From the NCBI GenBank assembly GCA_025055285.1, contig JANWXM010000006.1, forward strand, positions 62,001 to 126,000: a DNA stretch of 64,000 nt. Direction: 5' to 3'. Every line of letters begins with the position of its first letter. The stretch's first letter is position 1. The position numbers were made by a program, and so were the translations under genes. This DNA comes from Saprospiraceae bacterium (GTDB taxonomy: Bacteria; Bacteroidota; Bacteroidia; Chitinophagales; Saprospiraceae). Under the pieces are notes generated by a model, which saw nothing but the letters and a program-made list of their open reading frames with translations, did no database searches and was not told where the DNA came from. Positions 43,345-47,359 of the stretch are shown piece by piece.

Positions 43345-44778
43345 TCACGCGTGCTCCACTGCTTGCTTCTCCGCCTCCAAATAGGCCAGAATACCACCTT
43401 TTAAATTGTACAAATTGTCAAATCCAAACCGCTCTTCCAATTCTCGAATCGCTTTTGCGCTGCGCGCCCCAGAACGGCAGTGAACTACTACAGGCACTTG
43501 GCGCGAGAGGCGATGGGCATTCTCCACCACTGTACCCAGTGGGATTAACTCGGCATTTATGTTGACTGCAGCATATTCATCAGGTTCGCGTACATCTATT
43601 AGTTGAAATGCTCGGCCTTCGGCTCGCCATTGTAAGAGTTCCTGTGGTGTAATTTCACGAATAGGCTTTTCAACAACTTTTACGCCGCAAAAATTTTCGT
43701 AATCAATAAGTTGTGTGATAGTTGGGTTTTTACCAGTTAGTGGGTTGTCATCGCGGCGTTTGATGCGAAAGATGCGTGTTTCAAAAGATAAAGCATCAAA
43801 GAGAAATAAGCGTCCGCTAAGGGGCTCACCTATACCTGTGATGACCTTGATGACTTCACAGGCTTGCATACTTCCAATGATGCCTGGCAAAACACCTAAC
43901 ACACCTCCCTCAGCACAGCTGGGCACCAAACCAGGCGGTGGTGGTGCTGGATATAGGTCGCGGTAGTTCGGGCCTAACTCGCCATTAGGATGTCGGTAAT
44001 TGAATACAGAAACCTGGCCTTCAAATTGAAAAATAGATGCATACACGTTGGGCTTACCCAGCAGTACGCAAGCATCGTTGACGAGGTATCGCGTGGGAAA
44101 ATTATCTGTTCCGTCAGCCACTACGTCGTACTCGCGGATAATATCTAAGGCATTGCGCGAATTGAGGAGAACGTCGTAGGTGAGGATGCGAATGTGCGGA
44201 TTAAGCGCTGTCAGGCGCTGACGAGCAGCCTCTACCTTGGATTGGCCCACAGTATCTACGCCAAAAAGTACTTGCCGCTGCAAGTTGCTTGCCTCCACGC
44301 GGTCAAAATCCACAATGCCAATCGTTCCGACGCCTGCTGCTGCCAAATAGAGCAGCAAAGGGCTACCTAAACCGCCAGAACCGACGACTAGCACACGGGC
44401 TGTTTTGAGCTTCTGCTGCCCTTCGAGCCCAAATTCTGGAATAATGATGTGGCGATGATAACGAGCCAACTCCTCCTCTGAAAATGTTGCTTCGGCCCTT
44501 TGAGTCGTCCCGCCAGCAATGGCGGGCACAATGCTTAAGGTAGCATCCGCAGATAAAGGCGTATCAGCCCATTGCAAATCGCGCACATCCTCCTCACCAA
44601 CAAATAGATTGAGGAAAGGACGAATCTGGCCTTGGTCATCCAGCAAATGCTTTCGCAGATCTGGGTATTCTTGAACTAGGCGTTGAAGCGCCTCACCTAC
44701 TGTGCTCGCCTCTACGTTTAGCTTGGAAGCTTGGTTGGTGAACTTGCGCAAAGGCGTAGGAATAATAACAGTTGCCAT
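43345..44778 (-). CDS. Sulfur carrier (CysO/MoaD-like) - E1-like adenylyltransferase - rhodanese triple fusion
   Basis: A 477-residue protein in three parts. Residues 1-90 are a beta-grasp sulfur carrier ending VPAIAGG (Gly89-Gly90), the same ending as the free carrier CysO. Residues about 97-360 are a MoeB/ThiF E1-like enzyme: SGGLGSPLLLYLAAAG nucleotide loop, DFDRVEASNLQRQ, DGTDNFPTRY, and VPSCAEGGVLGVLPGIIG. Residues about 375-470 are a rhodanese with active Cys in VVHCRSGAR. The structural zinc cysteines of MoeB are gone: GPNYRDLYP replaces the CYRC type, and DDNPLTGKNP replaces the CPVCG type. The usual role is adenylation and sulfuration of the carrier C-terminus. Here that C-terminus is internal and would need cleavage after Gly90. 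It is third in line after cysM and the JAMM gene. Confidence 0.92.
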   Translation of the reverse strand: MATVIIPTPLRKFTNQASKLNVEASTVGEALQRLVQEYPDLRKHLLDDQGQIRPFLNLFVGEEDVRDLQWADTPLSADATLSIVPAIAGGTTQRAEATFSEEELARYHRHIIIPEFGLEGQQKLKTARVLVVGSGGLGSPLLLYLAAAGVGTIGIVDFDRVEASNLQRQVLFGVDTVGQSKVEAARQRLTALNPHIRILTYDVLLNSRNALDIIREYDVVADGTDNFPTRYLVNDACVLLGKPNVYASIFQFEGQVSVFNYRHPNGELGPNYRDLYPAPPPPGLVPSCAEGGVLGVLPGIIGSMQACEVIKVITGIGEPLSGRLFLFDALSFETRIFRIKRRDDNPLTGKNPTITQLIDYENFCGVKVVEKPIREITPQELLQWRAEGRAFQLIDVREPDEYAAVNINAELIPLGTVVENAHRLSRQVPVVVHCRSGARSAKAIRELEERFGFDNLYNLKGGILAYLEAEKQAVEHA

Positions 44779-44811: not shown

Positions 44812-45303
44812 TTAACACGTAGAAGGGTGTGCGGGATTATCTACAGCAACGAAGGGGGCGTGCGTTGCTTTGTCCTCGATAGGGAGGGGTTCAGCGATTG
44901 ATTCCTCTTCGAATTGGCGCGCATCGTTGAGGCGCCAAGACCGGACACGCCCGATGCGACCGTCGAGTACGGAAATGATGACATAGGAAAAAAAAGGCTG
45001 CGCCGCCAGTCGGTCGTGTTCTGAAGGCACAGCTGGGTGATTAGGATGAGAATGATAGACTCCTAGCAGCATTAGGCCGCGTTCTTCAGCGTACTGTTCG
45101 GCAGCAAGGTAGTCTTTGGGCGCTATCTCAAAGCGTCGGCGCTTGTCGCCTTCCTTGGCGTTAGTCACCACCACAATGTCGCTTAGATAGCGGGATCCGT
45201 CCTCCTTTTCCGTGCCGAAAAGAAAGCCACAGCACTCATCGGGAAAGGTCTGTCGTGCATCCGCCAACATGCGTTCGCGTACAAGAGGGCTAAACACAAG
45301 CAT
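44812..45303 (-). CDS. JAMM/MPN+ metalloprotease (Mec-like)
   Basis: A 163-residue protein with an intact JAMM zinc site: Glu23 in DECCGFLFG, and His84, His86, Ser94 and Asp97 in YHSHPNHPAVPSEHD. Mec of Mycobacterium removes cysteine from the C-terminus of the carrier CysO. Related bacterial JABs cleave after a carrier Gly-Gly. The gene stands between cysM and the carrier-E1 fusion, so both activities are plausible: release of cysteine from the carrier, and cleavage of the fusion after Gly90. A Pro/Cys-containing tail of about 25 residues has no recognised role. Confidence 0.9.
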   Translation of the reverse strand: MLVFSPLVRERMLADARQTFPDECCGFLFGTEKEDGSRYLSDIVVVTNAKEGDKRRRFEIAPKDYLAAEQYAEERGLMLLGVYHSHPNHPAVPSEHDRLAAQPFFSYVIISVLDGRIGRVRSWRLNDARQFEEESIAEPLPIEDKATHAPFVAVDNPAHPSTC

Positions 45304-46308: not shown

Positions 46309-46340
46309 AGGGCCCTCCGATGCTTGCGAAGGGCCCTGCA
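46309..46340 (-). promoter_or_regulatory. GC-rich hairpin in the cysM leader, possible attenuator or weak terminator
   Basis: The self-complementary octamer AGGGCCCT occurs twice with 13 bases between, forming an 8-bp hairpin. On the minus strand only TTTAAC follows, so termination would be weak. It lies about 50 bases before the cysM ATG. It could end the peroxiredoxin transcript or modulate cysM. Confidence 0.45.
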
Positions 46341-46481: not shown

Positions 46482-47117
46482 TTACAGGTTGGGCTGCGGT
46501 GTGTATCGAAGGTAGGGTTTAACTTCTCGCACACCCTTCGGAAATTTTTGCACAGCTTCCTCGGTCGGAATAGCCGGCGCTACGATAACCTCTTCGCCGT
46601 ATTTCCAGTCGGCTGGTGTCGCTACGCTATAATAAGCCGTCAATTGCAGCGAATCCAGTACGCGCAGCACTTCGTCGAAATTTCGCCCTGTGGAGGCGGG
46701 GTAGGTGATAATCAGTTTAATGCGTTTGTCTGGACCAATAATGAATAGCGAACGCACCGTGAAGTTTTCCGAGGCATTTGGATGGATCATGTCGTAGAGA
46801 GTTGCGATGCGGCGATCTGGGTCAGCAATGATAGGAAAGTCTACCGTTGCGTTTTGGGTCTCGTTGATGTCCTGCACCTAACCCAAGTGTTTGTCCAGCG
46901 GGTCTACGCTTATGGCAATCACTTTGGTGTTCCGACGGCGGAACTCCTCGGAGAGGTGCGCCGTACGACCCAGTTCAGTAGTACACACAGGCGTGTAGTC
47001 GGCAGGATGCGAAAAGAGAATCCCCCAGCTATCGCCGAGATACTCGTAAAAGTCGATTTCGCCCTGAGTGGTTTGGGCCTTGAAGTTAGGAGCGATGTCT
47101 CCAAGTCGTAAGCTCAT
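46482..47117 (-). pseudogene. Prx6-type 1-Cys peroxiredoxin interrupted by one in-frame TAG
   Basis: The frame reads through a complete Prx6-family protein of about 211 codons. The start is ATG 47117 (MSLRLGDIAPNF). The peroxidatic Cys45 is in SHPADYTPVCTTE, and the family C-terminal part has IADPDRRIATLYDMIHP, VRSLFIIGPDK, YPASTGRNFDE and YLRYTPQPN. The only defect is codon 80, TAG at 46878-46880, between DKHLG and VQDINETQ, where the family has Trp. Everything else is well preserved, with no frameshift, so the mutation is very recent, a sequencing error, or a read-through site. Intact, it would reduce peroxides using thiols. It lies between a poly-Cys leader and cysM. Confidence 0.85.
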
Positions 47118-47155
47118 AACGCAAAGTGTTTTAGTTGTGAACGGATAAAAAATTT

Positions 47156-47190
47156 GACAGCCCTTCGGCGTGCACTGCCGAAGGGCTGTC
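47156..47190 (-). terminator. Intrinsic terminator in the leader of the peroxiredoxin gene (attenuator)
   Basis: Perfect 14-bp arms (47156-47169 and 47177-47190) with a 7-base loop. On the minus strand it is followed by AAATTTTTTATC. It stands after the poly-Cys leader stop codon and 39 bases before the peroxiredoxin start, where it can only act to stop transcription before the gene. Confidence 0.85.
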
Positions 47191-47262
47191 AGGCGGAAAT
47201 ATGCTCTACTTTTTAAAGTGCCACATTTTTTGGCGCACACCGCATTCGCTCCACTTCGGCAG
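47175..47262 (-). promoter_or_regulatory. Antiterminator pairing alternative to the leader terminator
   Basis: CTGCCGAAG in the leader-peptide coding region (47254-47262, minus strand) is the exact complement of CTTCGGCAG, which covers most of the 5' arm of the terminator (47175-47183). The 9-bp pairing and the terminator are mutually exclusive. The first element starts 10 bases after the last Cys codon, so a ribosome stalled at the start of the Cys run would leave it free, while one reaching the stop codon would cover it. Confidence 0.65.
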
Positions 47263-47329
47263 GCCGAACCGGACAACAACAGCAACAACAACACGCTACT
47301 GCTCCAAGAGCTATGCGGAAAAGCATCAT
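47213..47329 (-). CDS. Poly-cysteine leader peptide (38 codons) of a cysteine-responsive attenuator
   Basis: A short frame starting with two ATGs (47329 and 47326) and ending in TAA at 47213. Its codons 13-19 (47273-47293) are seven consecutive Cys codons, six TGT and one TGC, and an eighth Cys occurs later. Regulatory leader peptides with runs of the sensed amino acid are the classical arrangement in trp, his and leu operons; Cys runs are known in actinobacterial leaders. A near-consensus promoter (TACCTTTA) lies 23 bases upstream, a 14-bp terminator 23 bases beyond the stop, and an antiterminator option lies between. The peptide itself probably has no other function. Confidence 0.75.
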   Translation of the reverse strand: MMLFRIALGAVACCCCCCCPVRPAEVERMRCAPKNVAL

Positions 47330-47351
47330 AAGTGCGCTCTTATTTTCGCGA

Positions 47352-47359
47352 TAAAGGTA
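47352..47359 (-). promoter_or_regulatory. Near-consensus -7 promoter element (TACCTTTA) for the poly-Cys leader
   Basis: Seven of eight positions match TAnnTTTG on the minus strand, with only the final G replaced by A. It is 23 bases before the leader ATG. Confidence 0.45.

Follow-up and report, generated by a model that had tools for sequence, protein, structure and literature searches.

A putative poly-cysteine leader-peptide attenuator ahead of a peroxiredoxin and cysteine synthase operon in a Saprospiraceae bacterium

What is a run of seven cysteine codons doing in a short reading frame ahead of a peroxiredoxin gene? The question was raised by a 64,000-nt stretch of a Saprospiraceae genome (the whole stretch analysed, hereafter the window), for which the original prediction had proposed a cysteine-sensing transcription attenuator. 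The classical leader-peptide attenuators are those of trp, his and leu in enterobacteria. The present leader is like them in its codon run for the amino acid of the pathway within a short open reading frame (ORF), its intrinsic terminator and its competing antiterminator, and unlike them in that the signal would be cysteine, that no protector hairpin is evident in the window and that in some relatives a single gene is preceded by two copies in tandem. Judged from sequence, we consider it very probable that the locus encodes a ribosome-mediated leader-peptide transcription attenuator reading the level of charged tRNA-Cys. The features concerned are the following.

47352-47359, minus strand: near match to the -7 box TAnnTTTG, TACCTTTA, with exact boxes at the equivalent position in L061 and L062, regions of the two nearest relatives
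47213-47329, minus strand: leader ORF of 38 amino acids with seven consecutive Cys codons, from translation; start region, Cys run and following sequence conserved in L061 and L062
47273-47293, minus strand: putative control codons TGT TGT TGT TGC TGT TGT TGT (Cys x7)
47254-47262, minus strand: candidate antiterminator element (R2), CTGCCGAAG, resembling the terminator 3' arm and co-varying with the terminator in relatives
47175-47183, minus strand: CTTCGGCAG, bases of the terminator 5' arm and loop with which R2 can pair
47155-47191, minus strand: predicted intrinsic terminator, 15-bp stem and 7-nt loop followed by AATTTTTT, -30.4 kcal/mol
46482-47117, minus strand: 1-Cys peroxiredoxin (AhpC/TSA), first gene, ATG at 47117, in-frame TAG at 46880-46878
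46310-46336, minus strand: relic hairpin without Cys run or U tract, aligned with the site of a second poly-Cys attenuator in L061 and L062
45325-46308, minus strand: CysM-type cysteine synthase, ORF extending to 46383, best NCBIfam match TIGR01138 cysM
44812-45303, minus strand: JAB/Mec-type metalloprotease, Prok-JAB match
43345-44778, minus strand: ThiS-ThiF/MoeB-rhodanese fusion (sulfur carrier and its activation)

The 38-codon frame was present as predicted, and at 47329-47213 (minus) it encodes MMLFRIALGAVACCCCCCCPVRPAEVERMRCAPKNVAL, a short ORF with putative control codons for the amino acid of the operon behind it. Seven TGY codons in a row occurred once in the window, at 47293-47273, with 0.00 expected from shuffles, and in the whole genome this was the sole run of six or more found (two overlapping TGY x6 matches). 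Among 44 listed places in the same genome with four or five TGY codons, 30 were inspected (L081-L110), and most of these overlapped a long ORF. The leader RNA folded with z -3.58 relative to shuffles, of which 1/200 was equally good. Between the leader ORF and the first gene lies the predicted terminator, whose stem was originally given as 14 bp and perfect; the terminator and its T run stand, and the stem has 15 bp (47191-47155). The 9-base complementarity was also borne out, CTGCCGAAG (47262-47254) being the exact complement of CTTCGGCAG (47183-47175). Taken alone, the window's element-arm duplex was borderline (p = 0.060 vs dinucleotide shuffles), and the case for a mutually exclusive antiterminator 3' of the control codons therefore rests on the comparative evidence.

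The promoter consensus of Bacteroidota has the -7 box TAnnTTTG. Upstream of the window leader an exact box gave no match, the near match standing alone, and exact boxes were found in L061 (TACCTTTG, 54 nt before the Cys run) and L062 (TAACTTTG, 51 nt before). Among 90 poly-Cys leaders of the set described below, 38 had TAnnTTTG in the 200 nt ahead of the Cys run vs 12.9 expected in shuffles, and 22 had it together with TTG 17-23 nt upstream of the box vs 1.8 in shuffles; an equal length downstream of the run held TAnnTTTG in 6.

To place the leader among its relatives, 100 genomes were searched, 41 of them in the window's genus. Poly-Cys ORFs (3-7 Cys) preceded a peroxiredoxin or peroxiredoxin-like gene, cysM or both in 18 of the 20 relatives' regions fetched; of the two exceptions, the contig ends at cysM in L063 and L080 has none. 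Six regions (L061, L062, L064-L067) had two leaders, one per gene. The proposed search for Cys-run frames with co-varying arms found both kept by relatives before the same genes; relatives with neither would have spoken against an attenuator. In all, 106 gene loci were scanned: 80 came from named genomes (the best 80 of at least 594 matches), 25 from the fetched regions of relatives (19 of the 20) and one from the window. At least one poly-Cys leader lay within 450 nt upstream at 77 of the 106, giving 91 leaders in total; duplicate genomes are included (e.g. G018 and L121), and the leader before cysM in L064, slightly more than 450 nt from the match, falls outside. A short ORF started by ATG ran across the tract in the Cys frame in 85/91 leaders, in the YTG frame in 19 and in the GYT frame in 5. 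On these sequences the putative device is one of many and not a one-off before a peroxiredoxin.

Terminators were scored as a hairpin of -9 kcal/mol or lower followed by a U tract, and were present in 85/91 leaders vs 17/91 dinucleotide shuffles (one shuffle each), or in 70/91 vs 2/91 at a stricter cut of -15 kcal/mol. This method superseded an earlier finder (60/91) that overlooked stems and at times picked weak hairpins. Reverse complements also scored as terminators in 61/91 leaders (40 at -15 kcal/mol), as expected because symmetrical stems are flanked by A and T, and the hairpins alone therefore do not set the strand. The terminator started 3' of the leader stop codon in 81/82 leaders, and four of the six leaders without one by these criteria were from Balneolales. 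When seven genus-level peroxiredoxin leaders were aligned, both-side changes were seen at 5/15 terminator pairs; 98.1% of cells were paired, a share that fell to 32-57% once the partners were shifted by 1-3 columns.

The same comparison was made for the antiterminator. In the 85 leaders with a terminator, the stretch after the Cys run paired with the 5' arm at a median of -15.5 kcal/mol, where shuffles gave -9.8 and pairing to the 3' arm gave -8.3; the 5'-arm pairing reached p < 0.05 in 54/85 and p < 0.01 in 33/85, while 31/85 fell short of 0.05. The element started a median of 12 nt past the Cys run (8-22 nt for the middle 80% of leaders) and 5' of the leader's stop codon in 77/82 leaders, and for several of the 54 leaders reaching p < 0.05 the match also took in loop bases, on which the 3' arm sets no constraint. 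The sequences vary between lineages; examples are, for the window's genus, CCCTTCGG with CCGAAG; for other Saprospiraceae, GCCTTTCC with GGAAAGG; and for Chitinophagaceae, GCTCCACC with GGTGGA. Terminators were then swapped between leaders in a permutation test with row and column effects removed, using the 82 of 85 leaders left once identical leader/arm pairs were dropped, and 0/10,000 permutations were as strong as the pairing of each element with its own arm. Since the leaders are related to each other, the co-variation counts do not stand for independent events; when each arm type was represented by a single leader, z was -7.7 for 23 representatives and -5.4 for 15, with 0/20,000 permutations each. 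Within the seven-leader alignment, the antiterminator had both-side changes at 3/9 pairs and 91.7% pairing, which dropped to 22-51% on sliding by 1-3 columns, and the shuffle controls for these seven related sequences were mixed (8/500 for covariation score, 100/500 for both-side changes, 478/500 for further pair types). As far as sequences can tell, the element resembles the terminator 3' arm and changes with the terminator between lineages.

Terminator and antiterminator energies were compared by folding, as the original prediction had suggested, with the window RNA taken to the end of the hairpin loop and the ribosome covering 12 nt past the A-site codon. With stalls at Cys1-6 the element-to-arm helix was predicted at P 0.99-1.00, and with a stall at Cys7 two element bases were covered and the minimum-energy fold retained the seven remaining pairs. 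No antiterminator helix was predicted for a ribosome at the stop codon, because the element is then covered and upstream. Once the 3' arm was synthesised the terminator won in every case (P 0.97); it is far stronger than the antiterminator, and control must therefore be kinetic, as in classical systems. The antiterminator was also predicted to form when no ribosome was present (P = 0.99), and no strong protector (1:2) hairpin was seen in the window leader folds, just a local hairpin around R2. An untranslated leader is therefore also predicted to read through, unlike attenuators with a protector hairpin.

Under the proposed mechanism, a ribosome short of Cys-tRNA would stall in the Cys run and leave the element free, the free element would pair with the emerging 5' arm and block the terminator from forming, and RNA polymerase would proceed into peroxiredoxin, cysM, mec and thiS-thiF. 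With Cys-tRNA plentiful, the ribosome would pass the Cys run and cover the element, the terminator would fold and transcription would end. Relatives carry the device ahead of cysteine genes, and it therefore most likely boosts cysteine making when cysteine is scarce. Of the attenuation mechanism originally put forward, the Cys run, the terminator and the matched element that co-varies in relatives all stand, whereas no strong protector hairpin of the classical kind was seen. The peroxiredoxin frame contains an in-frame stop that had gone unmentioned.

Could the Cys run act in some other way? A poly-Cys upstream ORF (uORF) might work on translation or through Rho with the hairpin incidental, as proposed for mycobacteria, so that ribosome progress through the run gates the next start codon or the access of Rho. 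Cysteine-cluster uORFs are described for mycobacteria (Shell 2015, PMC4633059; PMC9094748, both from passages); the tested poly-Cys leaders of M. smegmatis are cited, in a passage referring to Canestrari 2020, as translation attenuation, and a passage of Seliverstov 2005 (PMC1262725) reports that no conserved terminators were found for the actinobacterial cys leader peptides. The window leader is like the mycobacterial polycysteine leaderless short ORFs in placing a Cys-run ORF before cysteine genes, and four Balneolales loci with the Cys run at the ORF end and no terminator passing would suit this explanation too. Yet a terminator with U tract is found in the window and in 85/91 leaders, unlike the mycobacterial cases, together with an element after the run that is matched to it as an antiterminator, and we regard an effect on translation or through Rho as improbable here. 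Less probable still is a sensor made of the Cys-rich nascent peptide itself, in which binding of metal by the thiols, or their oxidation, rather than tRNA-Cys supply would stall or release the ribosome. Runs of thiols do bind metals, and such a sensor would fit a peroxiredoxin operon, peroxiredoxin being the first gene in the window's genus. Against it, the number of Cys in the run ranges from 3, the threshold applied, up to 9, no flanking peptide motif common to the lineages was seen by eye, and the other genes found to follow such leaders resemble those of cysteine synthesis or sulfur assimilation.

TGY/YTG repeats are also found inside coding genes elsewhere in these genomes, and the run might in principle be a chance trinucleotide repeat beside an ordinary terminator of the upstream unit. 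The leaders nevertheless lie ahead of the same genes, hold to a single frame and carry a matched element, and runs of at least four Cys were found in 44 sense vs 0 antisense cases at 61 Bacteroidota and Balneolales loci (among the best 80 of at least 594). On the frame, position and antisense controls this reading was rejected, its probability being negligible. A poly-Leu or poly-Val reading was likewise rejected. Runs of at least four occurred at 21 (Leu) and 5 (Val) of the 61 loci and antisense Gln runs at 21, and these are taken to be other frames of the TGY tract, because ATG-started ORFs numbered 19 and 5 in those frames vs 85/91 in the Cys frame. We thus retain the attenuator reading charged tRNA-Cys as the preferred interpretation.

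How far the putative attenuator extends was examined with a cysM-alignment search of named genomes, which matched at least 594 stretches; the best 80 loci were kept, 79 with at least 300 nt upstream, and grouped by taxon label of the genome. Within these best 80, a short ORF with at least three Cys lay within 450 nt upstream of cysM at 44/48 Bacteroidota loci not labelled Flavobacteriales (1/48 in the antisense control), at 1/9 Flavobacteriales-labelled loci (0/9), at 4/4 Balneolales loci (2/4), at 4/10 loci of Acidobacteriota plus HR08 (0/10) and at 1/8 others (0/8). With at least four Cys the count for Bacteroidota and Balneolales was 44/61 vs 0/61 antisense. Some misses had a leader farther upstream (L145, L155, L153 and L158), two of them before a peroxiredoxin-like gene. 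Among Acidobacteriota/HR08, L169 and L181 matched strongly, CCCACTGCCGG with CCGGCGGTGG (-32.9 and -29.3 kcal/mol), L167 did not (element p = 0.445) and L186 lacked a terminator. L169 and L181, labelled Acidobacteriota and HR08, show CCC leaders before cysM on the same plan outside Bacteroidota. In the Balneolales loci L159, L161, L164 and L175 a run of 6-9 Cys ends the short ORF and is followed by ACCGG/CCGGT sequences; the Balneolales leaders may work differently. A separate survey of TGY patterns covered 298 genomes, in which a control pattern also matched and many places were repeats inside coding genes; among 20 entries in 30 loci, five resembled leaders of sulfur or peroxiredoxin-like genes, and the remaining entries were set aside.

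Some known systems come close. In Rhodobacterales, a passage of PMC8632094 describes uORFC-8-2 with two Cys codons and a terminator, found exclusively upstream of cysS, and proposes ribosome-mediated attenuation by tRNA-Cys. The present leaders share the Cys codons in a uORF and the terminator, and differ in having 3-9 Cys and in lying before Bacteroidota cysteine-biosynthesis genes, the window copy before peroxiredoxin/cysM and not cysS. Salmonella mgtCBR has tandem uORF attenuators for two different signals (abstract of PMC3641672); the tandem loci here likewise have two uORF attenuators per leader, unlike mgtCBR in that both copies carry Cys runs. A flavobacterial transcript map reports leader-peptide attenuation before amino-acid operons, in a passage that does not name cysteine (PMC9723704). 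Among the matches listed from titles and abstracts of the open-licence literature, none described a poly-Cys attenuator in Bacteroidota, in keeping with the earlier remark that none was known to be described before a peroxiredoxin in this phylum, and none described attenuation control of cysteine synthesis in Bacteroidota. An Rfam scan of the 64-kb window at gathering score returned no T-box, riboswitch or cis-regulator and a single tRNA. Leader-peptide attenuation is a known kind; its occurrence in this phylum, its spread across cysteine genes and the copies placed in series look new. With a clear reading frame, arms that match and leaders in tandem, the set can be tested directly in culturable Chitinophagaceae.

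The operon behind the window leader has its own history. Apart from the TAG at 46880-46878 (minus) the peroxiredoxin frame looks conserved. The frame is open in L061, and the L062 alignment spans an equal length and lacks the window's TAG; the stop may reflect either recent loss or a fault in the assembly. Before cysM, the alignment reads as a second leader that has decayed in the window. The TIGR01138 match of the CysM-type synthase scored 280 bits, under the curated cut-off of 394. Together with the Mec-type and ThiS-ThiF genes it forms a set that we take to resemble the mycobacterial CysM-CysO-Mec sulfur-carrier route, and if the proposed control is real, peroxiredoxin and a CysO/Mec-like pathway of this presumed kind would be tied to cysteine supply. 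A search for CysE or CysH gave no match in the window's genome, G018 or G035 and a weak partial CysE match in G002, with strong matches in the positive controls G034 and G020. The cysM operon may be the main cysteine route in the window's genome and its CysE/CysH-poor sisters. The four sister genomes G000, G002, G018 and G035, in which no strong CysE or CysH homologue was found, have 3.4-3.9 Mb, and the larger G020 and G034 of the genus carry both genes behind poly-Cys leaders.

Further genes were sought in a hand-picked sample of 40 same-genus regions among the matches listed (11 genomes), dropping Cys runs that overlapped an ORF of more than 120 amino acids or had no gene after them. Ten leader entries at 9 genes were kept, in 9 of the 40 regions and with a terminator in 9/10 entries. 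Behind them lay four cysE-type acetyltransferases, four cysH-type reductases and one OAH/OAS sulfhydrylase; NCBIfam, run on one of each type, placed the cysE-type gene below the curated cut-offs and the cysH-type gene and the sulfhydrylase above, the rest being assigned by eye, and all 9 look like cysteine or sulfur-assimilation genes. By eye, L064 and L065 also have leaders before cysH-type genes, as do L076 and L077 before OAH-sulfhydrylase-type genes. We lean towards a phylum-scale cysteine regulon of Bacteroidota, with Acidobacteriota outposts, in which poly-Cys attenuators, some of them serial, control cysM-mec-thiSF, cysE, cysH, sulfhydrylase and peroxiredoxin genes; if so, RNA leaders would do work handled elsewhere by protein regulators.

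Two poly-Cys leaders within 450 nt were found at 14 of the 77 leader-bearing gene loci, 13 of the 14 with two terminators. These tandem loci, all before cysM, were L074, L075, L118, L124, L129, L131, L134, L136, L138, L139, L148, L156, L157 and L162. The distance from Cys run to stop codon tended to be shorter in the first copy (9-36 nt) than in the second (18-45 nt). As read from sequence, such putative tandem gates are not limited to cysM. If they act as proposed, they are natural serial attenuators with control codons for one amino acid, and gates in series reading one tRNA would multiply termination into a steep switch. At L225 (G020:C23:94500-98600), a cysH-type gene has two poly-Cys leaders and two terminators.
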